64,000 bases of DNA, from contig CP113055.1 in assembly GCA_026625625.1 (NCBI GenBank), forward strand, positions 1,242,501 to 1,306,500, in the 5' to 3' direction. The translations under genes and the position numbers were made by a program. Every line of letters starts with the position of its first letter. Positions within the stretch are counted from its first letter, which is position 1. The notes below the pieces were generated by a model. The model did not search any database and had not been told where the DNA came from. It worked only from the letters and a program-made list of their open reading frames with translations. This stretch comes from Blastomonas sp. SL216 (lineage in GTDB: Bacteria > Pseudomonadota > Alphaproteobacteria > Sphingomonadales > Sphingomonadaceae). This document shows positions 3,870 to 19,701 of this stretch, piece by piece.

Positions 3870-5950
3870 GGCAATTTCCGGCATTCCCGCCCCTGGGAAC
3901 ACCGGCTGGCGCCAGCCTGCCTTCGGTTTGCATCGTCACCAACGAACTTGTCGGATTGTTCAAGAATGGCGGCATCGGCACGTCGATGACGGGGCTGGCG
4001 CAATGTCTGGCGCGGGCCGGCTTTCCGGTCACGGTGCTGTATTCGGCCAGCCACCGGATGGCACCGGACGACAGGCGCAGATGGACTGCAGAATATGATG
4101 CAAGCGGGATCAGGCTTGAATGGCTGGATCCGGCCGTCGAGGCCCAGTTGGTCGGTCCTGTTGCGGACATGGGCTTTACTGCCCCGATGCGGGTGTGGTT
4201 GCACCTGCGAGACCGGCAGTTCGATGTCATCCAGTTCAACGATTGCCTGGGCGATGGCTATCTGTGCCTTGCCATGGCCCGATTGGGGCTGGCCTTCCGC
4301 AACACCCATCTGCTGGTGGGGCTGCACAGCCCCAGCCAGTGGATATTCGAGATCAACCGTACAAGTCCCGGCTGGCTGGCGACCAGTGCCTATAGTTTTG
4401 CCGAACGCTTCAGCGTGGCGCACGCCGATCTGCTGTGGTCGCCCAGCCATTATCTGCTCGACTGGGCGGTCAGCGCCGGCTTCGAGATCACAGGCGCGCA
4501 TTATGTCCAGCAATATGCCTTGCCGGCCAGACCGACCGAAACCCTCACCCAAGCCAGCGCGCAACAGTCCGACCGGATCAGGGAAATCGTTTTCTTTGGC
4601 CGTCTGGAAGAACGCAAGGGGCTTCGCCTGTTCTGCGCCGCCCTGGGCCAGATCGACGGCTTCTTGCAGCAGAACGGGATCAAAGTCACCTTTCTGGGGA
4701 AGATCGCCAATATCGGCGGTCAACCCGCAGACGGTTTTCTGAAGGACCAAGCCCGCGCCTGGGGCTTTGCCTGGCAGATCAAGGCGGATCTCGGCCAACG
4801 CGAGGCGATAGCGCATCTCAAGTCCGGCCAGACCCTGGCGGTGATGGCTTCACCTGCGGACAACTCGCCCTGCACGGTCTACGAAGCGCTGGACGAGGGA
4901 TTGTGCTTCATCGCCGCCCGAACCGGCGGCATTCCCGAACTGATCGATGCGCAGGACAGGGACAGGGTGCTGTTCGACTATGACGCGGATGCGCTGGCCG
5001 CCAAGCTCATCCAGTCGCTGACCCAGGGCTGCGCGCCCGCGCTGGCAGCCAACAGCCAGGATGCCTGCCGCGCCCGGTGGGTTGACGCCTTTGCCGCCCT
5101 GCCCGACCTGGTCGGCAGCAGGGCCGTGGCTGCGACCGGCGAGCATCCATGGCTGGCGCTGGTCGATCATCATCAGGGCGACGATCTGGCTGCCACGGTG
5201 GCAAGCCTGGAGGCGCTGGATCAGGTTCGGGATGTCATCATCCTCAACCATGGTCCCTCGCCCCTTGCCGGAGATCAAGGCCGGGTCGCCGTGAAAACGG
5301 TGAACCTGATGGATCAGGGGTGCCGGCAGCTGCCCGGTCTCCTGAACTTGGAAGACGACGAACGCGTTCTGATGCTGCGATCGGGATGCGCGGTACGACC
5401 GGAGGGCTTTGCCATGGCGGATGCTGCCCTGCAGGCTGAGGGCGTCGACGGCGTCCTGCCCGCCGGTCTGACCGCCGAAGGCAAGCTGCTGGTCCCCCTG
5501 GGAGGGAGCCCAAGCTTTGCCTTTTGGCACGGTGTCGATCTGGGTGGCGGCATGGCGCTGAAGGCCGATCGCTTGAAACCGCTGCTGGGCGCGGACTGGC
5601 TTGCACCGAACAGCCCCTATTGCAACATTGCAGACATCGCGGTGAGCCAAGGACTGGTGCTCTGGCCATTGCCCGAGCCTCTGCTGAGCCATGCCGGCAA
5701 GCAGAGCTTCACTGCGAAACCCTTGCCGGTGCCGGAACGCGTGCTGCGCTATTCAGCTGTTTCGGACATCGAGCGCTATTATATCCAGGCACAGTCGCTT
5801 GCGATGAGCTCCCGGAAACCGGGATTGTCGCGGTCGGCCCTGGTACGGGCAATCTACCACCGGCTCGCCTCGGGCCGGGCCGCCCGGCCGACCATCTGGC
5901 TGAGGAGCAAGATGCCCGCCGGCCTGCTGAGGCGCATCATCGGGTCGTGA
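3866..5950 (+). CDS. Glycosyltransferase family 4 protein with extra C-terminal domain
   Basis: 694 residues. The first ~420 form a GT-B fold: the N-terminal glycine-rich NGGIGTS (34-40), then a GT4 C-terminal half with FFGRLEERKG (about 241) and DNSPCTVYEAL (about 331), the nucleotide-sugar/phosphate-binding region. From about residue 427 to 640 a second domain begins with LVDHHQGDDLAATVASLEAL and resembles a degenerate GT2-like Rossmann domain without a clear DXD. ATG 3866 overlaps the upstream stop (ATGA); ATG 3851 is an alternative. Adds a sugar to the glycan made by this locus (inference). Confidence 0.8.
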   Translation: MRQFPAFPPLGTPAGASLPSVCIVTNELVGLFKNGGIGTSMTGLAQCLARAGFPVTVLYSASHRMAPDDRRRWTAEYDASGIRLEWLDPAVEAQLVGPVADMGFTAPMRVWLHLRDRQFDVIQFNDCLGDGYLCLAMARLGLAFRNTHLLVGLHSPSQWIFEINRTSPGWLATSAYSFAERFSVAHADLLWSPSHYLLDWAVSAGFEITGAHYVQQYALPARPTETLTQASAQQSDRIREIVFFGRLEERKGLRLFCAALGQIDGFLQQNGIKVTFLGKIANIGGQPADGFLKDQARAWGFAWQIKADLGQREAIAHLKSGQTLAVMASPADNSPCTVYEALDEGLCFIAARTGGIPELIDAQDRDRVLFDYDADALAAKLIQSLTQGCAPALAANSQDACRARWVDAFAALPDLVGSRAVAATGEHPWLALVDHHQGDDLAATVASLEALDQVRDVIILNHGPSPLAGDQGRVAVKTVNLMDQGCRQLPGLLNLEDDERVLMLRSGCAVRPEGFAMADAALQAEGVDGVLPAGLTAEGKLLVPLGGSPSFAFWHGVDLGGGMALKADRLKPLLGADWLAPNSPYCNIADIAVSQGLVLWPLPEPLLSHAGKQSFTAKPLPVPERVLRYSAVSDIERYYIQAQSLAMSSRKPGLSRSALVRAIYHRLASGRAARPTIWLRSKMPAGLLRRIIGS

Positions 5951-6018: not shown

Positions 6019-7779
6019 TCAGCCAGCGGGCGCCTGCAACCGGCGCAAAGCTTTGCGAATGTTGATATGGCGTGCATCGGGGAAAAGCCTTGCCCGCACT
6101 TGCCGCAACGCGCTGCCGCTCGTTTTCTCGATGCGCTCCACATCGTCGACGACCGATGCCAGCCTGTCGAGGAAAGCGCGATTTCGGTCGGTCAGGCCAT
6201 CATCATCGATGCTGCCTGTAGCGGCGAGCGATGCAGCCCGTTCGACCAGCGACACAGTCTTGGTCCAGTCGGGATAGGCGTGGCGCGCGGCCTGTTGCGG
6301 GTCCTGCCAAATCCGGTCGAGCAGCAGTTCCGCCATGTCCAGATGCGATGCCAGCGTGCGATATTGCTGGTCCAGCATCCGCAGTTCGTGGTGACCGACC
6401 ATGGGGTCGTCAAAGCCCCCCACCGCTTCTATCTGCGCGTGCAGCGCGTCGAGGGCAGCCTTGTCATAATCCTCGAACATGTTGCCCTGGGTCCGCTGCA
6501 GCGTGCCCGAATGCGGGATCAGGCGGATGGTGTCGAAGCCAAGCTCTCGCGCCATGGTGATCGCCGCGCCGACATCCGATATGTTCGCCAGCTGAACCGT
6601 ATAATTCCATTGCAGGTGGCGGATCAGGCCGCGCTGGCGCAGTTCTCCCAGAAACGCGATCCTGGGCTGCATATCGACCCAGCACGAACCAACCCGCACC
6701 CGGTCGTACACCTCGGACGACGCACCGTCGATCGACATGAAAACATTGTCGAACCGGTTGTGCTGAATGCGGCTCCACATCTTCTCGGAGAAATTGGTCG
6801 CATTGGTGGTCAGTGAAATGCCGATGTCTCGCGCCGACAGAACATCGCTTTCGATGAACTTGACCATGTCGCGCATGATAAGCACTTCGCCGGCCCCTGA
6901 AAACGACACTGCCTCAAGGCTGCCCATCGCCACGACTTCGTTGATGGTGCTGACCGCGGCACCGATCTTGGCACGCTCGGGCAGTATCCTGGTGTCCCGG
7001 CACATCGTGCATTCCAGATTGCAGCCATAATCGATGTCATGGTGCATCCCTGCAGGGCCGAAGGACAGTTCGGTCAGCCCGTCATTGACAGCGGCGATGA
7101 TATCTTCGCTCAGCAATCCGTCGTCCGCCGGAATATGCGTTTTTGCAGGCGGCGATTGCAGTTTCGGGCAGACCTCTGGGCGACAGCTGGTCGCATAATC
7201 GCCAGCCAGAAACTGCTGACGCATCGCCTGGTAAACCGGCCCGTTCCAGACGTCCTTCATCGAATCCGAGGCAGCATGTCCGGCGAGCATATTGGGCTTG
7301 ATCCACGCCAGGCAGCAGCAGGGGTAGATCGACTGGTCCGCAAACACGGTGGTATAGCTGAACGGAAAATAGCACTTCAGGCGTCGGCGCTGGCCACGCC
7401 CCCATTGGACCGACTGCCATATCCGGCTGAACGCGAACCCGCCTGCAGGCTGACCCTGCTGATCGACAACGCGCAATATCGCCTGGCTGCCAGGGGTCAG
7501 CCCGGTCAGATCGACCGCGGCATTCTGCCAGCCAGACACCAGATCGGCACGGTCGATCAGCGCTTCGCCGCTCCAAAGCTCAAGAAACGCTGCAGGTCCA
7601 TTGGGCTTCACCAGGCACTGCAGATATCGGCCACCTTCACCGGTCTCGATGACCAGATCGTCTTCCACCGTGCACAGGCAAAGCGAAGCCGCGTCAACAT
7701 CCAAGACGCCGATATCACTGGCCATCGCCACAGCGTCCGGTTTCATATCCAGGGCAACGAAGCCCGCCAGCAGGGTCAC
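6019..7779 (-). CDS. Radical SAM protein with SPASM-like cluster domain placed before the core
   Basis: About 586 residues (numbering here from TTG 7794). An N-terminal ~135-residue domain is followed by a SPASM-like segment with C141, the run IYPCCCLAW (157-164), SMKDVWNGPVYQAMRQQF and C204/C209, and only then the radical SAM core with DYGCNLECTMC (256-265, a CX3CX2C iron-sulfur site), SFSGAGEVLI and LTTNATNFS. So an auxiliary iron-sulfur domain precedes the core. GTG 7779 has AGAGG 5 nt upstream; TTG 7794 would overlap the permease stop. Downstream of an ABC-2 permease gene, so probably modifies the exported product. Reaction unknown. Confidence 0.75.
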   Translation of the reverse strand: MTLLAGFVALDMKPDAVAMASDIGVLDVDAASLCLCTVEDDLVIETGEGGRYLQCLVKPNGPAAFLELWSGEALIDRADLVSGWQNAAVDLTGLTPGSQAILRVVDQQGQPAGGFAFSRIWQSVQWGRGQRRRLKCYFPFSYTTVFADQSIYPCCCLAWIKPNMLAGHAASDSMKDVWNGPVYQAMRQQFLAGDYATSCRPEVCPKLQSPPAKTHIPADDGLLSEDIIAAVNDGLTELSFGPAGMHHDIDYGCNLECTMCRDTRILPERAKIGAAVSTINEVVAMGSLEAVSFSGAGEVLIMRDMVKFIESDVLSARDIGISLTTNATNFSEKMWSRIQHNRFDNVFMSIDGASSEVYDRVRVGSCWVDMQPRIAFLGELRQRGLIRHLQWNYTVQLANISDVGAAITMARELGFDTIRLIPHSGTLQRTQGNMFEDYDKAALDALHAQIEAVGGFDDPMVGHHELRMLDQQYRTLASHLDMAELLLDRIWQDPQQAARHAYPDWTKTVSLVERAASLAATGSIDDDGLTDRNRAFLDRLASVVDDVERIEKTSGSALRQVRARLFPDARHINIRKALRRLQAPAG

Positions 7780-7790
7780 TTGATCCTCTG

Positions 7791-8582
7791 TCAAAGCATG
7801 TCACCCAATTGTCGCCTGAACGCCTTTGTCACCAGCATGGCTGTAGCAGACAGCAGCAGCACCATGGCCCAGAAGATCAGGGTCTCGCGCGCCGACGGCA
7901 GCGATGCACTGTCGCCCAGCAGAGCATAGCGATAGGCATTGACGATATGTGCGCCGGGATTGAGCTCGACCAGCCAGCGCAGATCGCCCGGTATCCGGGA
8001 CACGGGCCACACGATCGGCGTCAGCCAGAACCAGAGCGCCAGCAGCGGGACAACAGCCTGGGCGACATCGCGGAACGCGGCGTTGGCGACCGAACAGATG
8101 ATACCGAGCGGCAGCGCGAAAGCGCACAGGCATGCAATCGCATAGGGCAGGACGAGGATCGTCAGGCCTGGGGGATAGGCGGCCACCGCGAGGCCGATCA
8201 TGACCAGCGTCAGGATGATGGCATGCGTGACCAGCGCCGCGCACAGGCTTGCGGCCGGGAAGACTTCGACCGGCAGCGCAGAATTGCGCAACAGCGTGGA
8301 GTTGGCCGATATCGCATGGGTCATGTTGACGACCGCTTCGGTCAGGAATGCCCAGGCCACGATCCCTGCGGCCAGCGCCACTGCCAGGGGATAATCGCCG
8401 CGCGCGGTCACGCCCAGGCCGACCTGGAGAACGAGCAGAAATGTGGCCATTTGCGCGAGCGGGAAAGCCACGCTCCACCACCAGCCCAACAGACTTCCGG
8501 CGAAACGCCGTTCCAGTTCCCTCATGGAAAGGAACCCGATCAATCTGCTATGTGCGCAAACCAGTTCCCAACGTCTTGCCAC
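7791..8582 (-). CDS. ABC-2 type polysaccharide export permease (Wzm-like)
   Basis: 263-residue inner-membrane protein with about six hydrophobic segments, matching the ABC2_membrane family that exports O-antigen, teichoic acid or capsule. Seen: the amphipathic N-terminal RELERRFAGSLLGWWW pattern (about 21-36), LFWFW-like LLALWFWLTPIVWPVS late in the protein and the NPGAHIVNAYRYALLG region, all characteristic of Wzm/TagG/KpsM permeases. Starts at GTG 8582. Its ATPase partner is encoded divergently just 88 bp away, and the radical SAM gene follows on the same strand. Confidence 0.88.
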   Translation of the reverse strand: MARRWELVCAHSRLIGFLSMRELERRFAGSLLGWWWSVAFPLAQMATFLLVLQVGLGVTARGDYPLAVALAAGIVAWAFLTEAVVNMTHAISANSTLLRNSALPVEVFPAASLCAALVTHAIILTLVMIGLAVAAYPPGLTILVLPYAIACLCAFALPLGIICSVANAAFRDVAQAVVPLLALWFWLTPIVWPVSRIPGDLRWLVELNPGAHIVNAYRYALLGDSASLPSARETLIFWAMVLLLSATAMLVTKAFRRQLGDML

Positions 8583-8670
8583 GACAATTTCCGCATCCCG
8601 CTATCTGCCGCAAAAAGGCCAGGACATTCGGGGGTTGCCGCTGCCTGGCTATGGCGGTTAATAGCGGCGG

Positions 8671-9915
8671 ATGAAGATGTCAACGTCCGCACCTGGCTCC
8701 TCGGCGCCCCCGATTGTCATGGACGTCCAGAACGTTTCCAAGCGTTATAATCTCTATCGTTCGACCGGGCACCGGCTGGCGGGCATGCTCGGCCTGGCCA
8801 AGCCGCTGGATGTCAAATCTGCGCTGCGCGATGTCAGCTTTTCGGTCCGCAAGGGCGAGATGATCGGCCTGATCGGTGGTAATGGCGCAGGCAAATCCAC
8901 CCTGCTCAAGCTTGTCGCCGGGGCGACCACCGCCAGTTCGGGCAAAATCACGCGCAGCGGGCGGATCGCGGCGCTGCTGGAGCTTGGTGCCGGGTTCCAT
9001 CCTGAATGGACCGGGCGGCAGAATGTGGAATATTATCTGCGCCTGCAGGGTCTCAGGCGAGCCGAAGTCCAGGCATTGCTGCCGCAGATCGAGAGCTTTG
9101 CCGATATCGGCGCCTATTTCGATCAGCCGATCCGAACCTGTTCGACCGGTATGGCCATGCGCGTCTCGTTCGCCGCCGCAGCGCTGCTTCCGTGCGAAAC
9201 GCTGATCATCGATGAAGCTCTGGTGGTGGGCGACAACCGGTTCGCGCACAAATGCTTCCAGCATATCGCCCAGCTGCGCGAACAGGGCATCACGATCTTT
9301 CTGGTCACGCACCGCCTCGATCTGGTGACGCAGCTCTGCTCGCGCGCGCTTTATCTTCAGCACGGTCAGCTGGTGTTCGACGGAAGCCCCGATGAGGCTC
9401 TCACGCTGTATTATCAGCAATATACCACCTCGCCCAACGCGAACGACGGAGGAATTCCCGCAAAGATCGAGAAGCCGGATACCGAATATGGTTCGCGTGA
9501 GGCCAATATCCGCGCGGTTCGGTTGAGCGACAACAGGCTGAGATCGGGTGCCAACGCGGTCGTGGCCGTCGACTTGCACTTCGCGAAGGCATGCAACCAT
9601 CCCGTACTGATGTTTGCGCTCAAGACGACCGAGGGCATTTTGCTCTATCAGACCGATACCGATCAGCTGGGAGCATCGATCGGCGCGGTAGCCGCCGACA
9701 GCCATGTCACGGTCGAAATCGCGATCCCCCTGCCCTTTGCGACGATGAGCGTGTTCGTCAATCTCGCCCTGACCGAACAGCGCAGCGACGGCCTGCATGT
9801 CCTGCACGCCAGGGCGTCGTGCGTCGAAATCGAGGTCGACGGCCCTCCGGGTTTGCTGGGCCTGGTCGATGTGGGGGCCGCGATGACCTTGATCGGGACG
9901 GAAATGGTGGCTTGA
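8671..9915 (+). CDS. ABC transporter ATP-binding protein, Wzt-like with C-terminal domain
   Basis: 414 residues. The ATPase domain has Walker A GGNGAGKST (69-77), the polysaccharide-exporter signature stretch LELGAGFHPE (103-112), ABC signature CSTGMAMRV (157-165), Walker B TLIIDEAL (177-184) and the H-loop VTHR (about 212). Residues ~250-414 form a Wzt-type beta-rich C-terminal domain, which in known Wzt proteins binds the chain terminus (often methylated) of the exported O-polysaccharide. That fits the methyltransferases nearby (inference). ATG 8671 is used; 8677 is also possible. GT2 gene follows after 2 nt. Confidence 0.9.
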   Translation: MKMSTSAPGSSAPPIVMDVQNVSKRYNLYRSTGHRLAGMLGLAKPLDVKSALRDVSFSVRKGEMIGLIGGNGAGKSTLLKLVAGATTASSGKITRSGRIAALLELGAGFHPEWTGRQNVEYYLRLQGLRRAEVQALLPQIESFADIGAYFDQPIRTCSTGMAMRVSFAAAALLPCETLIIDEALVVGDNRFAHKCFQHIAQLREQGITIFLVTHRLDLVTQLCSRALYLQHGQLVFDGSPDEALTLYYQQYTTSPNANDGGIPAKIEKPDTEYGSREANIRAVRLSDNRLRSGANAVVAVDLHFAKACNHPVLMFALKTTEGILLYQTDTDQLGASIGAVAADSHVTVEIAIPLPFATMSVFVNLALTEQRSDGLHVLHARASCVEIEVDGPPGLLGLVDVGAAMTLIGTEMVA

Positions 9916-9917
9916 CC

Positions 9918-10991
9918 ATGACCTGTCCGCCCAAAGTCAGCGTGATCATCCCGGCGTACAACGCCAGCAGGACACTTGCGGCAACGCTCGACAGCGTGAG
10001 GGCCCAGACCTTCACCCAGTTCGAATGCTGGATCGTCGATGACGGGTCGACCGACGACACCGCAGCCATTGCCGAGCTTTATGGCAAGGCCGACCCGCGT
10101 TTCCGCCTGTTGCGTCAGCCCAATCGCGGGGTCGCGCTGGCCCGCAATACGGCCTTGGAGCAATCACAGGGCGAGTTTGTTGCCGCGCTGGATGCGGACG
10201 ATGTCTGGCACCCGGATTATCTCAGGGCCCATGTCAGCGCCCTGACCGAGAGTTCACCGCATGTGGGGTTTTCCTATTGCTTCGCGCGCGCAATCGACGA
10301 GCATGGCTGGGTGAAGAGCACCATGCAGACGCATGGCATCAGCGGCCGGATCGGCCAGGCTTTGCGCTATCACAACGCGGTGGGAAATCCGAGCGTGGTG
10401 GTGTTCAGGCGCGACCATATCATCGGGGCTGGCGGCTATGATCCGCGCCTTCAACAGAGCGGCAGTGTCGGGTCCGAAGACTGGTTGCTGCTGATGAAAG
10501 TGGCAGCGACGTCCGAGGCGACGGTCATTCCGCTCTACCTTGTCGGATACCGGGTTTTGCCGGACTCGATGTCGGCGGACCGCATGCGCATGGTCAAGTC
10601 CTCGCTTCTGGCCGAGCAGATCTACATGGCAGAATTGCCGGAAGCCGCGACGCCCGAACGGGTTGGCCGCTGGCGGTCGGCGCTATGGGCGTTGGAGCGG
10701 GGGCGCGATGCCATGCGTTCCGGCAAGATTGTCCGCGCCGCCTGGGCATTGGGCCTTGGCGCGCTGCTCGATCCCGCGCGGCTATGCGCCCGTCTGGCGG
10801 ATATCCCGGTGTCGATCTATCTTCTGTCGCGAAGGCAAGACATGCGCGACTGGGCTCAGTTGAGGCCCGACGAGGATTTCTTCAACCATCACCAGAGCAG
10901 GCCATTTTCCTCCCGATTGATGAAAAGCAGATTGCAGCGACTGTCATCCACCGCCGGCCCTGATCCGCAGCGGCTTTGGCCGACACGCTGA
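9918..10991 (+). CDS. Glycosyltransferase family 2
   Basis: 357 residues. GT-A fold of family GT2: VSVIIPAYNASRTL (7-20), WIVDDGSTDD (38-47), NRGVALARN (69-77) and the metal-binding ALDADDVWHP (90-99). A long C-terminal part from ~250 is helical and unassigned. The ATG at 9918 lies 2 nt after the stop of the Wzt-like ATPase, so the two genes are one operon. Presumably elongates or decorates the exported glycan; sugar and linkage cannot be read from sequence. Confidence 0.88.
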   Translation: MTCPPKVSVIIPAYNASRTLAATLDSVRAQTFTQFECWIVDDGSTDDTAAIAELYGKADPRFRLLRQPNRGVALARNTALEQSQGEFVAALDADDVWHPDYLRAHVSALTESSPHVGFSYCFARAIDEHGWVKSTMQTHGISGRIGQALRYHNAVGNPSVVVFRRDHIIGAGGYDPRLQQSGSVGSEDWLLLMKVAATSEATVIPLYLVGYRVLPDSMSADRMRMVKSSLLAEQIYMAELPEAATPERVGRWRSALWALERGRDAMRSGKIVRAAWALGLGALLDPARLCARLADIPVSIYLLSRRQDMRDWAQLRPDEDFFNHHQSRPFSSRLMKSRLQRLSSTAGPDPQRLWPTR

Positions 10992-11016
10992 TCCGGTAAG
11001 GCGCGCGCAAGCGTCC

Positions 11017-11039
11017 GGGCCTTTATGGTGGAAAGGCCC
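11017..11039. terminator. Hairpin between convergent genes
   Basis: GGGCCTTT and AAAGGCCC form an 8-bp perfect stem around a 7-nt loop, between the end of the GT2 gene and the end of the convergent hydroxylase gene. There is no clear T-run afterwards, so intrinsic termination is only probable. Confidence 0.45.
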
Positions 11040-11080
11040 TGTTGCATCCCCGTTGGCCAATTCCGGCACCTGCGGCCGCC

Positions 11081-11794
11081 CTATCGGTCCAGCCCGAGGC
11101 GCTGGGGCGACTGGTTGCCGCTGTACGTGCCGAACATCCGGTCCCAGACGATCAGGCCATTGCCGAAATTGCTGTCATGTTCGGACCGATCGGCCGAATG
11201 GTGGCGGCAATGGATCGCAGGGGTTGCGATCACTCCGCCCAGAATGCGTTCGGCCATGGGCGGCAAGTGGACATTGCTGTGCGCCGCCAGGTCCAGCGCC
11301 TGCAATACGATCAGCGCTCCGGCAACGGCCAGTTCGTCGAGACCGGTCAATGCCGTTACGAAAGCAAGGCTGGCCGCCGACAGAATGGCCTCGCCCGGAT
11401 GCGTGCGAAAGCCGGTCGAGAAATCGAGATGCACGTCACCGTGATGGACGCGGTGCCATCGCCAGAGAAGATCGGAACGGTGCATGAGCCGGTGCAGGCT
11501 GTAGCTTGCCAAGCTGAAAAGCGTCAGCGCGATAGCTCCTTCGCTGACCAGCGGCAGGCTCGCCGCCCAGCGGCTGTTCAGCAGCCCCCAGCCGTGCTCT
11601 GCGGCCAGTATCGCAGCGGCCATCGGCCCGATCCAGGGCAGCAAGCCGATCAGCATGGCGACGATCCCCAGACCGAAATTGATCAGCAGCCGGCGATCAT
11701 CCGAAATCCCCTTTCGCGCAGGCGAAAGCGCCTCGCCGAGACAGGCCAGCATGAACACCAGAAGCAGTACGACCAGATGGATGGAGCCTGTCAT
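11081..11794 (-). CDS. Sterol desaturase/fatty acid hydroxylase-family membrane protein
   Basis: 237 residues with four or more hydrophobic segments and the histidine clusters of the FA_hydroxylase superfamily: HRLMH (101-105), HRVHH (114-118), then HSNVH and HCRHH with a following H near the C-terminus. These histidines bind a di-iron centre in the family, which hydroxylates or desaturates lipids. ATG 11794 is chosen because it is followed at once by a membrane segment; a longer frame to 12025 would overlap the exosortase substrate gene on the other strand. Substrate unknown; proximity to the glycan and exosortase loci may be coincidental. Confidence 0.8.
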   Translation of the reverse strand: MTGSIHLVVLLLVFMLACLGEALSPARKGISDDRRLLINFGLGIVAMLIGLLPWIGPMAAAILAAEHGWGLLNSRWAASLPLVSEGAIALTLFSLASYSLHRLMHRSDLLWRWHRVHHGDVHLDFSTGFRTHPGEAILSAASLAFVTALTGLDELAVAGALIVLQALDLAAHSNVHLPPMAERILGGVIATPAIHCRHHSADRSEHDSNFGNGLIVWDRMFGTYSGNQSPQRLGLDR

Positions 11795-11915
11795 GACAGC
11801 ACCATTCCTAGCCAATCGGCAGGTGCTTGACACCCCTGAACTGCAACGCCAGTGTCGCATGCAACGATGGCCCCGTTCGGCCGGGTCCAGGCTTTCGATC
11901 TTCAGGGGACATGAC

Positions 11916-12086
11916 ATGACACTCGACCGTATCGCCACCGCCTCGCTGTTCGCTGCCATGCTGATGAGCGCGGATGCAGCAATGGCCGGCGTTGCCGTGC
12001 CCGCTCCGGTTGCAGGCGTGGGCATCGGCGCAGTGCTGCTGATCGGCCTGGGTTATCGCGCCTTGCGCAACCGCATCGGGAACTGA
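11916..12086 (+). CDS. Tiny exosortase substrate with PEP-CTERM-like sorting signal
   Basis: 56 residues. Seen: a signal peptide (1-24) ending at an AMA-like cleavage site, then only about 32 residues consisting of VAVPAP, a glycine/leucine-rich membrane segment (GVGIGAVLLIGLG) and a basic tail RALRNR. VPxP plus membrane helix plus Arg cluster is the layout of PEP-CTERM-type sorting signals. A strong Shine-Dalgarno AGGGGA (11904-11909) sits 6 nt before ATG 11916. The exosortase gene starts 37 nt downstream. The mature protein would be nearly empty after sorting, which is odd. Substrate role is inferred from motif plus neighbour. Confidence 0.75.
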   Translation: MTLDRIATASLFAAMLMSADAAMAGVAVPAPVAGVGIGAVLLIGLGYRALRNRIGN

Positions 12087-12123
12087 ACCGCATCGGGCGC
12101 CTGTCCTTCGTACGTTTCCGGCC

Positions 12124-12972
12124 ATGACAGCAGCATTGTCGCCGGCGGGCGCCAGGGCACCGCGCGCGGTGTGGCTAACGCTTGCCGGCATCGTAGCTGC
12201 GGTCAACATGAACGCGGCCTATATCATCGGCAGCGTCCAGCTGCAGGGGCTGGCCATCGCTGCCACCAATCTGTTCGGCCTCAACGCCGCCATGCTGTTT
12301 GCCCTCTACGGGCTGTGGGAAATCGGGCAGAAGGACACTGCCAACGCCCAGGCAGTACCTGGGTCGCGGAGCGATATGGTGGTGATCGCCGCAACCCTTG
12401 GCCTTTCGCTGATCCCCTGGAATGCCGCCAGCCTGGTGGCACTTCTCGGCATTGGCTTGTGGTGCATTGTCACTAGCGCAGCCGAAACGGCTGAACGCCG
12501 CGCCGGACTGATCATGCTGACCATGGGCGGCAGCATCCTGGTCGCACGTCTGCTGCTCAACAGTGTTGGCGACAGCGTCGTCAATCTCGATGCGCAGTTT
12601 GTCGGCTGGCTGGCCGGGGTCGCTGTCGAGGACAATGTTGTCGATTTCCGCAATTTCGGTGAGCGCAGCTTCATCATCGGCCTGGGCTGTTCATCGGTGC
12701 ACAACATGTCGCAAGCGGTGCTGCTATGGGCCACGACCACCCAGTTGCTGCGATTGAAGATCGATGCACCGCTGGTCCTCTTTGCCCTAATGGCGATGGC
12801 CGGAATGTTTCTGGTCAATGCCGCCCGGCTGACCGCCATTGCCTGGTATCCGCAGCATTTCGACACGATCCACCAGGGCTGGATCGCCGAGCTGTTCGGC
12901 CTGATCAGCCTGATCGTCGCAGCCCTGATCATTGCGGCAGGGGCATTGCATGCTCACCGTCGCCAGGCTTAG
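12124..12972 (+). CDS. Exosortase/archaeosortase family protein
   Basis: 282-residue multi-pass membrane protein with about eight hydrophobic segments. The three residues expected of the exosortase active site are present: Cys189 in GLGCSSVHNM, Arg235 in LVNAARLTAIAW and His250 in HFDTIHQGW. Exosortases are transpeptidase-like enzymes that recognise and process PEP-CTERM proteins at the inner membrane for surface display or export. Flanked by a candidate 56-residue substrate and an overlapping accessory gene. Which exosortase subtype it is cannot be decided by eye; it lacks the large EpsI-fused form. Confidence 0.88.
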   Translation: MTAALSPAGARAPRAVWLTLAGIVAAVNMNAAYIIGSVQLQGLAIAATNLFGLNAAMLFALYGLWEIGQKDTANAQAVPGSRSDMVVIAATLGLSLIPWNAASLVALLGIGLWCIVTSAAETAERRAGLIMLTMGGSILVARLLLNSVGDSVVNLDAQFVGWLAGVAVEDNVVDFRNFGERSFIIGLGCSSVHNMSQAVLLWATTTQLLRLKIDAPLVLFALMAMAGMFLVNAARLTAIAWYPQHFDTIHQGWIAELFGLISLIVAALIIAAGALHAHRRQA

Positions 12973-13447
12973 CGCGGTGCTGCTGGTCGTGGCGCTGACA
13001 GCGACCATGGCGCCCAAAGCGCTGCTCACCGAGTTCAACGCGACCGAAGATCAAGCCCGGCTTGAGCGCGACATTGCGCGCCGGCTCGAGGATCGGGGAT
13101 TTTCGGTTACCCGCAGCACCGAGATTTCCCGCCCTGCGACCTTCTATGCTCAGCGCGCAGACTGCCGGGTCATGATCCGGCATGCGACAGACCCCGCCGG
13201 ATTTGATCGCAAATACAGGCAGAATTCCCGCGCCATAGGGATGCTCCGCTATCGTATCGGATCGAAGAGCTACGATGCACCGCCACTGCTGGACCTGTGG
13301 GTGGCCGAAAAGCTGCATCAGGCGAAAATTCGGCTGCGCATCGGTAATGCGCGCGCAGCTGCACTGGCGATCGCCATGAACGCGGACTGCCCGCCCGATG
13401 CACTTCCGACCGATGACCTGCTGATCCATCCCCAGGCCTCAAGCTGA
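12950..13447 (+). CDS. Membrane-anchored exosortase-associated protein of unknown function
   Basis: 165 residues. One N-terminal hydrophobic segment (about 4-22) is followed by a periplasmic domain of ~140 residues with two cysteines in ADCRV and NADCPP that could form a disulfide, and a basic/acidic helix DQARLERDIARRLEDRG. AGGGG lies 6 nt before ATG 12950; the start overlaps the exosortase stop by 23 nt, so it is probably co-translated. No family recognised. Size and topology are reminiscent of EpsI-type exosortase partners, but I do not see enough similarity to claim that. Confidence 0.75.
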   Translation: MLTVARLSAVLLVVALTATMAPKALLTEFNATEDQARLERDIARRLEDRGFSVTRSTEISRPATFYAQRADCRVMIRHATDPAGFDRKYRQNSRAIGMLRYRIGSKSYDAPPLLDLWVAEKLHQAKIRLRIGNARAAALAIAMNADCPPDALPTDDLLIHPQASS

Positions 13448-13587
13448 GCCGACTGGTCATTGGTGAATGGCCTTGCGGGGACCAGTGTGCGACGCGGATC
13501 GACATTTTCGTATACCACTCGTCGCTCCGGGGCTTCCCGCTTTGCAATCATGCACTTATGGTTCGCGCCAAACCAAGGGGAATCATC

Positions 13588-15420
13588 ATGAAGCCTGTCA
13601 TCCGTACCGCCGTGTCCGCGCTTGCGCTGGCGTTTGCTCTTCCAGCCGCTGCCGCCTTTGCCGAGGTGGCTCCTGCGCCGGCATCCCCCTCGACCGAAGA
13701 TGCCGCGCTGACCGCGTTTCTGGATGCCGAGTTCGAGACATGGGTGCAGATGCAGCCGCAGCTCGCCACGCGGCTGGGTCGCAAGGACAATGGCGACAAG
13801 TGGAACGACCCCAGCGAGGTTGCAGCCGCAGCGCAGCTGGCCTGGCGACAGCAGAGCATTGCCCGGATGAAGGCGAAGTTCGACCGGGCAAAGCTTTCGC
13901 CCGAGGCGCAGGTCAATTACGATATCTGGGAGCTGGAGGGCGAGCGCGCGGCACTGTCGCATGCCAACCGCGTCTATCGCCCGCCTTTCTATTCGCGGCT
14001 CTATTCGGCGCACAGCCAGTTGCCCGATTTCCTGATCAACACCCACACCGTCGCGGACGTCACCGACCTCAGGAACTATATCGCGCGGCTGCGCGGCATG
14101 CCGGCGGTGCTGGATGTGGCGATCGAGCGCACCAGGGCAAGCGAGACGGCGGGCATTCGCGCGCCGAAATTCCAGATCGAAACGATCATCTCGGGCAGCG
14201 AGAAGCTGAGCAGCGGCGCGCCCTTTGGTGACGGGCCCGACACTGCGCTCTGGGCCGATGTGAAGGCCAAGACCGAAGCGCTGGTAAACGCCGGCAAGCT
14301 GCCGCGCGCCGAAGCCGACGCGCTGCTCGCCGAAGCCCGTGCGGCCATTGTCGCGCTCAAGCCCGCTTATGGCCGCGTCATTGCCTGGGCGAAGGAAAGC
14401 CTGCCGCTTGCCCCCAGCGGCAAGGTCGGTGCGCTCACGCTGCCCGACGGCGCGGCCTATTATGCCAATGAGCTCAAGCTCAATACCACCAGCGATTACA
14501 CGGCAGAGCAGATCCACAGGATCGGTCGGACCGAAGTTGCGCGGATCGAGGCGGAGCAGGATGCACTGGCGCGCAAGGCAGGGTTCAAGGACCGCAGCGC
14601 CTATTATGCCGAGCGTGCCCGGCTCAACCCTGCCCGTCAATTCGACGATGCCGCGCGCCAGGAATATCTCGACAGCGCCAATGCTTTTGTGAAGCACACG
14701 CGCAGCCTGCTTGCGCCCTATTTCAACACCCTGCCCGCATACGGGATCGAAGTGGTGCGCGAACCGGCCTTTTCCGAGGTCGCGGGCGGCGCAGCGCATG
14801 CCTCTGCCCCCAGCCCAGATGGCGCGCGTCCGGCACGCACCTATGTGCATCTGGTCGGCACGGTGCCCGACCCTGCGGCCAAATATACGCTGATGTGCCA
14901 TGAGGCTGTGCCCGGCCACAACATGCAGGGCGATATTCAGGTGCGACAGAAGAGCGGGCCGCAGTTCCGCGCGGTCACCGGCTATGTCGCGTTTGGCGAA
15001 GGCTGGGCGCTTTACGCCGAGGCGCTGTGCAAGGAGATGAACGCCTTTCCCGATATCGCGGCGGACTTCATGCGGCTGGATGCAGAGCTGTTCCGGGCGG
15101 CGCGCCTGGTTGTCGATACCGGCATCCATGCGATGGGTTGGACCGAGGACGAGGCGGTGGAGTATATGAATACCACCGGACGCCAGCCGATCGAGCGTTC
15201 GCGTTCCGAGATCCGCCGCTATATCACGCTGCCCGGCCAGGCGACCGGCTACAAGATGGGCATGCTCAAGATCATGGAACTGCGCCAGAAGGCGGAGAAG
15301 ACCCTGGGCCCCAAATTCGACATCAAGGGCTTCCACGACCTGCTGATCGCATCGGGATCGCAGCCCCTGTCGATCCTGGAGCGGCGCGTGAACGACTGGA
15401 TCAAGCGCAGCCAGGGTTGA
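13588..15420 (+). CDS. DUF885 family metallopeptidase-like protein, secreted
   Basis: 610 residues with a clear signal peptide (about 1-24, ending AAAAFA). The DUF885 family is predicted to be a zinc peptidase: the motif HEAVPGH (about 438-444) supplies two histidines and the catalytic Glu, and GEGWALYAE (about 470-478) gives the third ligand. ATG 13588 is preferred over 13558 because AAGGGGAA lies just upstream and the signal peptide begins there. Located in the periplasm or outer membrane space by prediction. Followed by a terminator-like stem. Substrate unknown. Confidence 0.88.
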   Translation: MKPVIRTAVSALALAFALPAAAAFAEVAPAPASPSTEDAALTAFLDAEFETWVQMQPQLATRLGRKDNGDKWNDPSEVAAAAQLAWRQQSIARMKAKFDRAKLSPEAQVNYDIWELEGERAALSHANRVYRPPFYSRLYSAHSQLPDFLINTHTVADVTDLRNYIARLRGMPAVLDVAIERTRASETAGIRAPKFQIETIISGSEKLSSGAPFGDGPDTALWADVKAKTEALVNAGKLPRAEADALLAEARAAIVALKPAYGRVIAWAKESLPLAPSGKVGALTLPDGAAYYANELKLNTTSDYTAEQIHRIGRTEVARIEAEQDALARKAGFKDRSAYYAERARLNPARQFDDAARQEYLDSANAFVKHTRSLLAPYFNTLPAYGIEVVREPAFSEVAGGAAHASAPSPDGARPARTYVHLVGTVPDPAAKYTLMCHEAVPGHNMQGDIQVRQKSGPQFRAVTGYVAFGEGWALYAEALCKEMNAFPDIAADFMRLDAELFRAARLVVDTGIHAMGWTEDEAVEYMNTTGRQPIERSRSEIRRYITLPGQATGYKMGMLKIMELRQKAEKTLGPKFDIKGFHDLLIASGSQPLSILERRVNDWIKRSQG

Positions 15421-15432
15421 CCAGCGCCTATG

Positions 15433-15467
15433 GCAAAAGCGGGTTTCGATCAGAAACCTGCTTTTGC
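15433..15467. terminator. Stem-loop after DUF885 gene
   Basis: GCAAAAGCGGGTTTC pairs with GAAACCTGCTTTTGC (15 bp, one G-T wobble) around a 5-nt loop. The stem carries A-rich and T-rich arms, as in bidirectional intrinsic terminators. Confidence 0.7.
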
Positions 15468-15569
15468 TGACGCGTTGTTGCCCTATATGGGCCATGTCGG
15501 GCGGCGCAATTCGCTGACCGCGAGAATGGGTACGCCGCCATTACTGAACCTGCCACCGCTGCCGTCGAG

Positions 15570-16964
15570 ATGACCCCCACCGATGCCGGTGCCGAAGACA
15601 CCGGCGGCGTACGCGCAGCAGCCGCGCCTCAGGGTCGGCCCGGCGGTGCAAAATTCCTGACCGGCAGCCTGATGCGCCATGTGGCGGTGATGACGCTGAC
15701 CTCCAGCGTCGGCCTGCTGGCGCTGTTCATCGTCGATTTCGTCAACCTGTTCTTCATCTCGCGGCTGGGCGATCCGGCGCTGACCGCAGGCATCGGCTTT
15801 TCGAGCACGCTGCTGTTCCTCAACTCCTCGCTCAACATCGGCTTGATGATCACCATCAGCGCGCTGGCGGCGCGGCGCATCGGCATGGGGCGCGGCGATA
15901 CGACGCGCGCGCTGCTCGGCGAGGTGCTGCTGCTCGGCGTGATCCTGTCGGGCGTCATCGCGACCATCTTCTGGATCTTCGCGCCGCAATGGGTCGACCT
16001 GATGGGCGGCACCGGCACCGCCAAGGAGGCAGCGGTCAGCTATATCCGCATCGTTGCGCCCTTTGGTCCGGTGACGGTTACCGGCATGGTGTGCTCGGGC
16101 TTCCTGCGCGCCTATGGCGATGCGCGCCGCGCCATGAACACGACGCTGGCCATGGCGATCGGCAATGCGGTGTTCGATCCGCTGCTGATCTTCGGGCTCG
16201 ACTGGGGCTTTGTCGGCGCGGCCTGGTCGACGGTGATCGCGATCATCCTGATGGCGATTACCGGCGTGGTCCCGATACTGCGCCATTATGGCGGCTTTGC
16301 CATGCCCTCACGCGCGAGCTTTGCTGCAAACCTGACCGATATCCGCAAGATCATGGTCCCGGCGGTGCTCACCAATCTGGCGACTCCGGTCGGGGGCATC
16401 ATCGCCTTCCGGCTGATCGCGGTCTATGGCGAAGCGGCGGTGGCAAGCTATGCGGTGATCGGCCGCATCATCCCGCTGGCCTTCTGCCTGCTGTTCTCGC
16501 TGTCCGGATCGATCGGACCGATTATCGGCCAGAATTACGGCGCGGGCCAGCTCGAACGGGTGCGTGGCACCATCGACCGGGCGGTCGTGTTTGCCGCCGG
16601 CTTCACCCTGTTGATCTGGCCTGTGCTGATCCTGGGCGTCGATACCATCGGCTGGATATTCGATCTGCCCGCAGGCGGCATGGACCTGATCCACGCCTTT
16701 GCCTGGGTCGTCGTGCCATTGTTCTTCTTCAACGGGCTGCTGTTCATCGCCAATGCCAGTTTCAACAATCTGGACCGCGCCTCATGGTCGAGCTGGACGA
16801 ACTGGGGCCGCAACACCATCGGCGTGCTGCCGCTGGCGATGCTGGGCAGCAGCATTGCGGGGGCACCCGGCGTGCTGGTCGGCCAGGCGGTCGGCGGCGT
16901 GCTGTTCGGGCTGGGCGCCTATTGGCTGACCTGGCATCGGGTGAATCAGCTGCGGAAATTATAG
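15570..16964 (+). CDS. MATE family efflux transporter
   Basis: 464 residues with twelve hydrophobic segments in two similar halves, the MATE layout. Seen: FFISRLGDPALTAGIGFSS in helix 1-2 and GQNYGAGQ in the second half, matching the family (NorM/DinF-like, Na+ or H+ driven multidrug exporters). A ~28-residue hydrophilic N-terminus precedes the first helix. It is preceded by a terminator-like stem and stands alone; 79 bp separate it from the next glycosyltransferase gene. Substrate range unknown. Confidence 0.9.
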   Translation: MTPTDAGAEDTGGVRAAAAPQGRPGGAKFLTGSLMRHVAVMTLTSSVGLLALFIVDFVNLFFISRLGDPALTAGIGFSSTLLFLNSSLNIGLMITISALAARRIGMGRGDTTRALLGEVLLLGVILSGVIATIFWIFAPQWVDLMGGTGTAKEAAVSYIRIVAPFGPVTVTGMVCSGFLRAYGDARRAMNTTLAMAIGNAVFDPLLIFGLDWGFVGAAWSTVIAIILMAITGVVPILRHYGGFAMPSRASFAANLTDIRKIMVPAVLTNLATPVGGIIAFRLIAVYGEAAVASYAVIGRIIPLAFCLLFSLSGSIGPIIGQNYGAGQLERVRGTIDRAVVFAAGFTLLIWPVLILGVDTIGWIFDLPAGGMDLIHAFAWVVVPLFFFNGLLFIANASFNNLDRASWSSWTNWGRNTIGVLPLAMLGSSIAGAPGVLVGQAVGGVLFGLGAYWLTWHRVNQLRKL

Positions 16965-17043
16965 GTTAACCGGTTTGGCGCTAAGCCGGGTTGCGGCTAT
17001 TCAGGCGCGTGGTGTACCAACAAACCGGTTTTGCGATCTGAAC

Positions 17044-18039
17044 ATGTCCGTCCCTGCCAGTCCTCTGATCTCGGTCATGATGAGCGTGTACAACGCCGAG
17101 CGCTATGTCGCCGAGGCGATCCAGAGCATATTGGGCCAGACCGAGGGCCGGTTCGAATTCCTGATCGTCAATGATGGTTCGCGCGATGCATCGGGGTCGA
17201 TCATCGATCGCTATGCCGCACAGGACAATCGCATCCGCGCCATCCATCAGGAAAACCGGGGACTGATCGCCAGCCTGAACCGCATGCTGGACGAGGCCCA
17301 GGCCCCTCTGGTGGCGCGCATGGACAGCGACGACGTATCGCGTCCGGAGCGCTTTGCGGTGCAGCTCGCCTATATGCAGGCGAACCCCGATATTGCCGTG
17401 CTGGGCACCAATACCGACGAGCTGGATGCGGACGGTGCCTTCTTCCCGTGCAGCGACTTTCATCCCGAACAACCGGCGGACATCCGCGATCGGCTGATGG
17501 TCGCCAGCGCCATGTGCCACCCTTCGGTGATGATGCGCCGCGATGTCATCCGGTCGCTCGGCAGCTATCGCGCCGCGTTCCGCCATTGCGAGGATTACGA
17601 CCTTTGGCTGCGCGTCAGCGAGCGCCACGACCTGTACAACCTGCCGGACAGGCTGTTCCTCTATCGCCGTTCGCCCGATCAGGTGAGCGAGCGGCACATC
17701 CTGGTCCAGGCCATCGGTGCAGCCTGCGCGCGCTATGCCGCGCAGCAGCGCCGTGCCGGGAGGCCCGACCCGTTCGAGGGCGCGAGCGCCCTGCCCTCGC
17801 TCGAACAGATCGATGCGATGATGGGCACGACAGGTGTTGGCGCGCGCATGCGGCTGGAAGTGATCGACAGCATCAAATATTCGCCCGAGGCGATGAACGG
17901 TGGGGGCCTTGCGCTGATGAAGGCGCATCTGCGCGAAGGCGGCACCAAGGACGGCTTCTGGCGTACCGCCGGACGCATGGTCAAACTGGGCATGATCCCG
18001 CAGGCATTGAACCTCTCGTTCGACCTGGTTCGCTACTGA
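17044..18039 (+). CDS. Glycosyltransferase family 2
   Basis: 331 residues. GT2 motifs: ISVMMSVYNAERYV (9-22), IVNDGSRD (41-48), RGLIASLN (72-79) and the DXD-like MDSDDVSRPERF (93-104), followed by the acceptor-loop region CEDYDLWLR. ATG 17044 is chosen because the frame upstream of it is not conserved-looking. Two copies of a GGTTT(T)GCG element lie in the 79-bp upstream gap (see findings). May act on cell-surface glycans; target unknown. Confidence 0.88.
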   Translation: MSVPASPLISVMMSVYNAERYVAEAIQSILGQTEGRFEFLIVNDGSRDASGSIIDRYAAQDNRIRAIHQENRGLIASLNRMLDEAQAPLVARMDSDDVSRPERFAVQLAYMQANPDIAVLGTNTDELDADGAFFPCSDFHPEQPADIRDRLMVASAMCHPSVMMRRDVIRSLGSYRAAFRHCEDYDLWLRVSERHDLYNLPDRLFLYRRSPDQVSERHILVQAIGAACARYAAQQRRAGRPDPFEGASALPSLEQIDAMMGTTGVGARMRLEVIDSIKYSPEAMNGGGLALMKAHLREGGTKDGFWRTAGRMVKLGMIPQALNLSFDLVRY

Positions 18040-18091
18040 ATCGCCCGGCTGAAGCCCGATTTTTCAACATTTTAACATCTCCCGACAGCGC

Positions 18092-18108
18092 TGTCCCGGT
18101 CAGAGACA
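18092..18108. promoter_or_regulatory. 17-bp semi-palindrome TGTCCCG-N4-GAGACA, copy 1
   Basis: TGTCCCGGTCAGAGACA, overlapping a perfect 12-bp palindrome GACAGCGCTGTC (18084-18095), 100 bp upstream of the cell-wall hydrolase start. The same motif recurs upstream of the EAL gene. Candidate operator; regulator unknown. Confidence 0.5.
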
Positions 18109-18207
18109 GCGCAATTTGGTCGCTGATTTGGTAACGGTTTTGCGCTAGGGGAGCAGTGTGACGGCGATCACGCCGCGCGACTCCCATCCAGGATACCATC
18201 TCCCACC

Positions 18208-19317
18208 ATGCCGCTTCGCTTCGCCCGTACGTTGTCTGCCCACAAGGCGATGGGGCTGCGCGAGTGGATTGCGTGGCTGTTGCTGGCGCTGGTGCTGTCG
18301 CTGGGTGCCTCGCAGATCGTCCGCGCCCAGCGCGGCGATGATGCCGATACCGCGCCGCGCTACCAGCCCAAAGAGGGCCTTGCCTTCGAGCATGCGGGCG
18401 AGAATTTCCCGGGCTCGGCCTTCTATTATCTCGATGATTCCGGATCGCTCGTCCTGCCCAGTCCGGCGGTGATGACCAGCGATGACCTGGGCATGGGCGG
18501 ACCGGGCGAGTTTGTCCGCAGTGTCGTGATGGCCGGATCGCCGAGCGATCATGCCCGCGCGCTGCAATGCCTGACAGCGGCCATCTATTACGAAGCGGCG
18601 ATGGAGCCCGATGCCGGTCAGCAGGCCGTGGCCCAGGTGGTGCTCAACCGCCTGATGCACCCCAGCTATCCCAACACCGTGTGCGGCGTCGTCTATCAGG
18701 GGTCGGAGCGTGCCACGGGCTGCCAGTTCACCTTCAGCTGCGACGGCGCGATGGCCCGCGCGCCCAGCCCGATCTATTGGGCGCGCGCCCGCCGCGTCGC
18801 AGAGCGCGCGCTCGCCGGCTATGTCTATCGCCCGGTCGGCACCGCAACCCATTACCACACGACCGAGGTCTCGCCTTACTGGGCGCCCAGCCTGGATTAT
18901 CTGGGCACCATCGGCGCGCACCGCTTCTATCGCTGGAAGGGCGCGGCTGGGCGCAGCAGCGCGTTCAGCGATCGCTATCTGGGCGGCGAGCCGTTCCCCG
19001 GTCCCAAGCCGCGCACCGGGTTCACGCTGACCGGCGGCGTCGATCCGCTGGACCCGCTGGTGCTGGCCAAGTCCTTTGAAGCCGCAAGGCTCAAGGCAGA
19101 GGCGGAGAATGCGGTGGAACTGGAGGCCCAGAGGCTGGGCCGCACCACGCCCATTGCCAGCCAGGCGCCGATCGGCGCAGCGGTACCTGCTTATGCGCCT
19201 GAAATGGCCAGGCGGGGCGGCGAAAAGGCCCTGCGCGGCAGCAACCTGCCCGACAACAGCCAGATAAAGCCCGAATATCGCAATTCCGGCCAGTGGATCC
19301 GCCAGCCGGGCACCTGA
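18208..19317 (+). CDS. SleB/CwlJ-type cell wall hydrolase
   Basis: 369 residues with an N-terminal membrane/signal segment (about 19-40). The Hydrolase_2 (SleB-like lytic transglycosylase) domain covers about 118-235: IYYEAAMEPDAGQQAVAQVV carries the catalytic Glu129, followed by LNRLMHPSYPNTVCGVVYQG and CQFTFSCDG. This family cleaves peptidoglycan. The C-terminal ~130 residues are low complexity and unassigned. It is periplasmic or inner-membrane anchored by prediction. A 17-bp motif shared with the next gene lies upstream (18092-18108). Confidence 0.9.
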   Translation: MPLRFARTLSAHKAMGLREWIAWLLLALVLSLGASQIVRAQRGDDADTAPRYQPKEGLAFEHAGENFPGSAFYYLDDSGSLVLPSPAVMTSDDLGMGGPGEFVRSVVMAGSPSDHARALQCLTAAIYYEAAMEPDAGQQAVAQVVLNRLMHPSYPNTVCGVVYQGSERATGCQFTFSCDGAMARAPSPIYWARARRVAERALAGYVYRPVGTATHYHTTEVSPYWAPSLDYLGTIGAHRFYRWKGAAGRSSAFSDRYLGGEPFPGPKPRTGFTLTGGVDPLDPLVLAKSFEAARLKAEAENAVELEAQRLGRTTPIASQAPIGAAVPAYAPEMARRGGEKALRGSNLPDNSQIKPEYRNSGQWIRQPGT

Positions 19318-19701
19318 TCCGGGCCCCTGAGCCCAGCCGCTTGCCTGCCGGGTGCGCAAAGCCTGCGGCATTAACGATAGCCAGCAACCACCTTCGCAAA
19401 ACCGCGGTTAGCACTCGCTAGCCTATGGTCGGTAATCGGCGGATTAACCGCGCCCCGTTTGTCCCGAATTGAGACAGACGGGATCACCGGCTTCTGCGGC
19501 AGGTCGAACGGCCCACAGGGAGAGCAAAGAAAAACCAACCTATTTTCCGTAACTTACTGCGACCAAACGGCGTGCAAGAGGCAGGCGAGCATCTCCAGAG
19601 TGATCCGCCGCAGCCTATGGCCTTTGAAAGCTCCGATGCGGGGCAAATTTGCATTTGGTTAACCCCGTGCGCGGTATGACGGTTTACGAGGAAGTAACCA
19701 C
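19318..19701. other. 384-bp intergenic region
   Basis: No convincing gene. It contains several TTAACC/GGTTAA half-sites (about 19444, 19658), a long AT-richer stretch at 19525-19560, and the second copy of the 17-bp TGTCCCG-N4-GAGACA motif. It is probably the promoter region of the CHASE2-EAL gene, with a long leader. Confidence 0.5.
19460..19476. promoter_or_regulatory. 17-bp semi-palindrome TGTCCCG-N4-GAGACA, copy 2
   Basis: TGTCCCGAATTGAGACA, identical to copy 1 in 13 fixed positions and equal in length, 226 bp before the CHASE2-EAL start. Candidate operator. Confidence 0.5.

Follow-up and report, generated by a model that had tools for sequence, protein, structure and literature searches.

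Gene organization at the locus

The window, that is, the whole stretch of 64,000 nucleotides from Blastomonas sp. SL216 analyzed here, contains a small cluster of genes around an exosortase. The first of these on the forward strand (11916..12086) is a mini-gene, whose frame runs from the ATG at 11916 to the TGA at 12086 and encodes a protein of 56 aa, MTLDRIATASLFAAMLMSADAAMAGVAVPAPVAGVGIGAVLLIGLGYRALRNRIGN, made up of a signal peptide, VPAP, a helix and an Arg tail. It is separated by 37 nt from the ATG at 12124 of the gene for a 282-aa exosortase (12124..12972, forward strand), which is overlapped by 23 nt by an accessory gene starting at the ATG at 12950 (12950..13447, forward strand). The initial annotation had described the 56-residue frame, the exosortase 37 nt further on with its Cys, Arg and His intact, and the overlapping accessory gene, and these coordinates and features were found to be correct. 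However, its three-gene layout was incomplete, as it had missed a fourth gene on the reverse strand (11081..11794), divergent from the mini-gene and encoding an integral membrane enzyme of the fatty-acid-hydroxylase family (PF04116). The 121-bp intergenic region between these two genes (11795..11915) is possibly a shared control region; no sigma-70-like promoter was found in 11600-13700, and Rfam gave no match in 8000-20000.

Residues 1-24 of the mini-protein (11916..11987, forward strand) are predicted, as read by eye, to form a signal peptide ending in AMA, and Ala at -3 and -1 (A22 and A24) occurs without exception in the aligned minis. The putative sorting signal of 29 residues (11997..12083, forward strand) consists of VPAPVAG, a helix and the Arg tail. 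If the exosortase cut after PxP, a site that we infer, the predicted remaining peptide would be GVAVPAP (11988..12008, forward strand). Spurious frames are abundant in this high-GC DNA, which would favor a chance open frame. This is nevertheless extremely improbable, given that the equivalent position is occupied in four other genomes and that an HMM made from the eight mini-genes of those genomes, with the window's own mini excluded, detected the 56-aa frame at E = 6.7e-13 among the 1209 six-frame segments of the window (runner-up, 0.37). With the relative G196 also removed, the values were 2e-10 and 0.56, respectively. By the NG86 method, dN was lower than dS in 35 of 36 pairs of minis, dS not being computable for the last one; because dS was mostly about 1 or higher, dN/dS is a rough sign only of purifying selection. 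As far as sequence can show, the mini-gene is real.

The window exosortase passes narrowly the model TIGR04178 (exo_archaeo; 23.4 bits, cut-off 23), which matches all eight aligned exosortases at E ≤ 0.1 (best, 1.2e-7). Pfam gave no family for the window protein at E ≤ 1, and none of the named NCBIfam exosortase subtypes (XrtA and others) matched it at E ≤ 0.1; the other aligned exosortases showed weak subtype matches, the best being to archaeosortase C (1.5e-6). C189 (12688-12690), R235 (12826-12828) and H250 (12871-12873), which we take to be the catalytic residues of the exosortase family, are identical in 8/8 aligned proteins. The AlphaFold model (mean pLDDT, 86.2) is mostly helical, and nothing significant was returned as a solved homologue, by sequence or by fold. 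Judged by these sequence features, the protein is a member of the exosortase/archaeosortase superfamily, with putative functions in the cutting and transfer of the signal. The accessory protein (165 aa) consists, according to the alignment and a model with a pLDDT of 80.8, of an N-terminal helix and an alpha/beta domain, and C72 and C147 are invariant in the alignment. It had no weighty match in Pfam or NCBIfam, the EpsI models included, and no significant solved homologue by sequence or fold; any role assigned to it is a guess.

The model of the PEP-CTERM tail (TIGR02595) did not match the window mini at E ≤ 1 and matched four of eight minis (best E, 0.19). Of the PEP-CTERM/EpsH hallmarks tested, neither a TIGR02595 tail nor an EpsI beside the exosortase was present. 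The "no EpsI" of the initial annotation is true of the locus but not of the genome, in which an EpsI domain is present in an XrtA-EpsI fusion at C1:399416 (XrtA, 334.8 bits vs. cut-off 208; EpsI, 81.8 vs. 42.8).

A tail HMM was built from 14 tails and applied to 12 genomes; these tails form part of the model, which makes their own scores non-independent. With a limit of E ≤ 1e-3, the HMM detected one tail, adjoining the exosortase, in each of seven family genomes and five in an eighth (G340), and in the other genomes one in G642, one in G751, two in G900 and none in G654. Matches of lower significance, up to E = 0.5, occurred in most genomes and were inspected for the window's genome, in which one tail of the mini type was recognized, beside the exosortase. 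A DNA pattern for the tail gave 6 + 2 matches in this genome, as compared with 9 + 5 for a backward control. Ten A3 tail matches, eight DNA-pattern matches and the second match of the 14-tail HMM were all read in frame, and no exported protein with the tail was seen besides the mini; we therefore rejected the possibility that the sorting signal is common to many proteins of this genome, and the scan for further carriers proposed in the initial annotation revealed none. It did reveal a different VPAP-like tail at C1:67910-67975 (L151), where a Ser-rich protein ends in VPAPPAILLFGAGAVALAARRRFAKRK..., with VPAPPA, a helix and an Arg tail. This protein has a PEP-CTERM score of 20.1 bits (cut-off 16) and lacks the PxPxAG...GY pattern. 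Either XrtA or the window's exosortase may process it, the XrtA-EpsI fusion of the genome being the more likely enzyme. Because of this second VPAP tail, a one-to-one pairing of exosortase and mini is not a strict certainty.

Relatives of the cassette and their substrates

Exosortase queries were run against 296 order, 397 family, 385 class and 9 genus genomes, samples that overlap; in the family and class searches, scoring covered the six top first-look candidates of each genome. This exosortase together with the accessory gene was found in eight family genomes (the window's, G196, G289, G302, G340, G360, G416 and G519); two weak matches (L007 and L008; E ~7e-4) were excluded from this count. 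Five of the eight (the window's, G196, G416, G519 and G340) have one or more minis of 53-58 aa before the exosortase, and conservation of the frame in relatives, on which the initial annotation's reading depended, was thus observed in four genomes besides the window's. In the remaining three (G302, and G289 and G360 from a single genus), the position before the exosortase is taken by an exported protein that is longer, Gly-rich and ends in the same tail. When 249 family genomes were searched with a mini HMM, with at most 27 candidates scored per genome, full mini-genes were confined to three genomes that have this exosortase, the window's own, G340 and G416; matches at G329, G381 and G416:C20 were inspected and rejected as mini-genes. 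A DNA pattern covering 8/9 minis matched three genome_contigs records, each from a genome already in the set; that collection may not include the window's own genome.

In G340, four minis lie in tandem before one exosortase, near a contig end (L037:9811-10574, reverse strand), and their mature residues differ while the tails are nearly constant. A fifth mini of this genome (L071:3976-4137, reverse strand) is on contig C19. The stretch from the AxA site through PxP comprises 7-8 residues in 9/9 minis: GVAVPAP in the window, ELAPVPGP, GSVVVPGP, FEVVPGP and TKFVPGP in the G340 tandem, and GTPITPAP, GMPIPSP, GIPVPAP and STVVVPRP; in three minis that carry an earlier AxA, the one adjoining the peptide was read by eye. 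As the initial annotation expected, only a few residues would remain in all nine after both cleavages, for a cut at the presumed PxP site. The mini is, in our view, probably a substrate of the window exosortase.

The long substrates at sister loci would also suit the idea that minis either are remnants of such proteins after loss of the central portion or serve as decoys by filling the exosortase, in both cases without yielding a product. Also compatible with this idea is that the exosortase tree does not unite the mini loci in one supported clade, although its deep order does not tell whether mini or long substrates came first. Purifying selection, tandem amplification, the constant spacing of 7-8 residues and the partnership with a hydroxylase described below all speak against it, and we regard such an origin without function as very unlikely.

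Within the genus, the exosortase is absent from all 8 other genomes examined. All 8 match the window DNA from about 13507-13536 rightwards, whereas the ~14 kb left of this junction in the same genomes had no match of more than 150 bp to the window's first 13.5 kb. Since the shared DNA starts there, the cassette is placed at the right edge of a genus-variable region, which also carries glycosyltransferase and Wzt-like transporter genes. The GC content of the cassette is not unusual. Near the glycosyltransferase and Wzt-like ABC transporter genes, there is also a gene for a 591-aa radical-SAM/SPASM protein (window 6019-7794, reverse strand), in which, unusually, the SPASM match (141-205) comes before the radical SAM match (257-372). 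The mini cassette seems to be an accessory system of rare and patchy occurrence.

No close exosortase relatives were confirmed by peptide patterns in genome_contigs and viral_contigs. A tblastn search of plasmids gave three distant rhizobial exosortases (23.6-29.9% identity), and in the only record that came with a gene table, that of Rhizobium sp. WL3, the exosortase lies in a polysaccharide locus, is labeled "hypothetical protein" and has an overlapping downstream gene. The class search added nine relatives in 8/384 other class genomes. A substrate of ~90-130 aa ending in PxP..G, a helix and Arg residues was seen before the exosortases of G642 and G751 and before one of the two in G900, with a weaker case in G654; none was recognized beside those of G743, G822, G757 and G643. 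On the opposite strand to the second, distant exosortase of G900, a 57-aa frame (L070:8773-8946, forward strand) ends in SPAPELSMGLVGLVAVAGAYGLTRLNKRK, a PAP tail, and has no clear signal peptide. When these nine relatives and the Rhizobium sp. WL3 protein were scanned with NCBIfam, three of the ten passed the generic TIGR04178, four gave weak matches below the cut-off and three gave nothing at E ≤ 0.01; none passed a subtype cut-off, and no subtype model for this alphaproteobacterial exosortase-accessory group was found. The mini cassette thus represents one end of a range within the group. At L127:3941-5306 (Rhizobium sp. WL3), L045, L047 and L048, a distant exosortase with an overlapping accessory gene follows glycosyltransferase genes, and no substrate tail was recognized beside these exosortases.

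The divergent hydroxylase

The product of the fourth gene matches PF04116 with E = 3.2e-25 (89.5 bits, gathering cut-off 31), and its His motifs HRxxH, HxxHH and HxxHH are unchanged in 5/5 cassette copies. It shares the PF04116 superfamily with OlsE; however, its score with the OlsE model (NF052566) is 69.9 bits, far under the cut-off of 475, and for this reason its lipid cannot be named. In an all-against-all comparison of the eight neighborhoods, the exosortase was recovered in 8/8, the accessory gene in 7/8 (the window's copy, more diverged, was missed there but is alignable) and the hydroxylase in 4/8, the four being exactly the single-mini loci. On contig C19 of G340, a hydroxylase gene (4238-5032, forward strand; E = 1.2e-51 with the cassette HMM) is divergent from the fifth mini, and no exosortase was present in the 12 kb read around it. 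Hence, four single-mini loci and this contig together give a mini-hydroxylase pair in 5/5 mini genomes, and in G340 the pair is found even where the exosortase sits on another contig. The number of genomes behind this association is small (five).

By contrast with these loci, the hydroxylase HMM (E ≤ 1e-3) found no copy in the surroundings (15-18 kb) of the three long-substrate loci or in nine regions of 5-17 kb from the class-level set. Related hydroxylases are themselves common in the family (125/394 genomes at E ≤ 1e-35). Thirty hydroxylase loci were fetched among the family matches, 4 of them cassette copies, and at the 26 non-cassette loci no mini was found within ~1.5 kb of the hydroxylase. 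A branch with support of 97/98 divides the cassette hydroxylases from these 26 in a tree in which the cassette branches are long and the 26 are the next-best matches. We regard it as almost certain that the genes form a conserved cassette; the hydroxylase could still act on an unrelated lipid.

The pairing of the fifth G340 mini with a hydroxylase instead of an exosortase, together with the constant length and two hydrophobic stretches of the minis, would also be accounted for if the mini were not a substrate, but kept both helices as a hairpin with PxP at the turn and served as a small component of, or a regulator for, a membrane complex formed by the exosortase, the accessory protein and the hydroxylase. 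We consider this unlikely, because Ala at -3 and -1 fits signal peptidase I, the Arg-rich tail is a typical trait of sorting signals, and clearly exported long proteins end in the same tail at the same position before the exosortase. The shortness of the peptide and the four tandem copies in G340 with differing mature residues could instead point to release of the trimmed peptide as a signal, like a pheromone. The cassettes share a lipid hydroxylase, however, and no receptor or regulator gene, and this alternative seems to us quite unlikely.

A proposed mechanism and its relation to known systems

Our preferred reading, to which we give a probability of roughly 40%, is that the cassette encodes a dedicated exosortase system, the substrate of which has been reduced to a signal peptide and a sorting signal, and that the short peptide is joined to a lipid modified by the hydroxylase. 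Double trimming is predicted from the anatomy, in which the AxA site is followed by PxP. The mini-protein would be exported and cut after AxA by signal peptidase I; the exosortase would then cut at or after PxP, removing the helix and the Arg tail. The remaining peptide of 7-8 residues (GVAVPAP in the window) would be held as an acyl-enzyme on Cys189, an intermediate suggested by the conserved Cys, as has been proposed for archaeosortase A. With the accessory protein possibly assisting at the periplasmic side, the peptide may be handed to an amine-bearing envelope lipid modified by the hydroxylase. The outcome would be a short lipopeptide of ribosomal origin, or an envelope lipid decorated with a peptide.

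That the peptide is joined to a lipid dependent on the hydroxylase is a tentative part of this scheme, modeled on archaeosortase A. The synteny of artA, pssA and pssD is described as having pointed to the lipid partners of archaeosortase A before the experiments, and an amine lipid, archaetidylethanolamine, is thought to resolve the acyl-enzyme (PMC7157517). By the same logic of synteny, the divergent hydroxylase may mark the acceptor lipid or its tailoring. Among the options listed in the initial annotation, the presence of a hydroxylase as the fourth gene makes a decoy less likely and favors an anchor for the attachment of another molecule, albeit short of proof.

The cassette would work like a dedicated exosortase system within the exosortase superfamily. 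It shares with PEP-CTERM/EpsH systems, such as XrtA with EpsI, a signal peptide, a C-terminal arrangement of motif, helix and basic tail, and a multi-helix enzyme with conserved Cys, Arg and His. In contrast to these systems, the window exosortase is not XrtA and has one recognized target rather than many, and its cassette is without EpsI, would leave 7-8 residues and has a hydroxylase partner. With archaeosortase A and PssA/PssD, it shares the superfamily and, as in some species there, adjoining lipid genes; the new C-terminus is lipid-anchored there (PMC7157517), and the same end is proposed here. Archaeosortase A differs in being archaeal, in its large S-layer or surface substrates and in its lipid genes, which encode phospholipid-head enzymes and not a hydroxylase. 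Single-target sorting has been described as "dedicated" for rhombosortase/GlyGly-CTERM, with the target gene beside the enzyme, although there the enzyme is an unrelated rhomboid and the target, as described, is not reduced to a signal (PMC3237569). The contention of the initial annotation that known systems process larger proteins is accordingly tempered by such single-target systems, and also by the larger substrates at sister loci.

Among the literature matches listed, we found neither a mini-substrate nor an exosortase-hydroxylase pair, and a conserved substrate with 7-8 residues left together with a hydroxylase partner had no precedent among them; short targets may have had an earlier mention in exosortase surveys. 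A study of 2011 reportedly made another link between exosortase systems and acyl-lipid enzymes, the enzyme there being a different one.

To our knowledge, the acceptor to which bacterial exosortases attach their substrates is still an open question. A cassette consisting of a single sorting enzyme with one accessory protein, one lipid enzyme and a product of 7-8 residues would make this question directly testable, and the predicted product is small enough for intact-mass LC-MS. More speculatively, the cassette may represent a new route to ribosomally made lipopeptides, in which an exosortase couples a doubly trimmed peptide of 7-8 residues to a hydroxylase-tailored lipid and tandem minis give rise to product diversity. 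This lipopeptide reading, if true, would amount to a new biosynthetic use of sorting enzymes.
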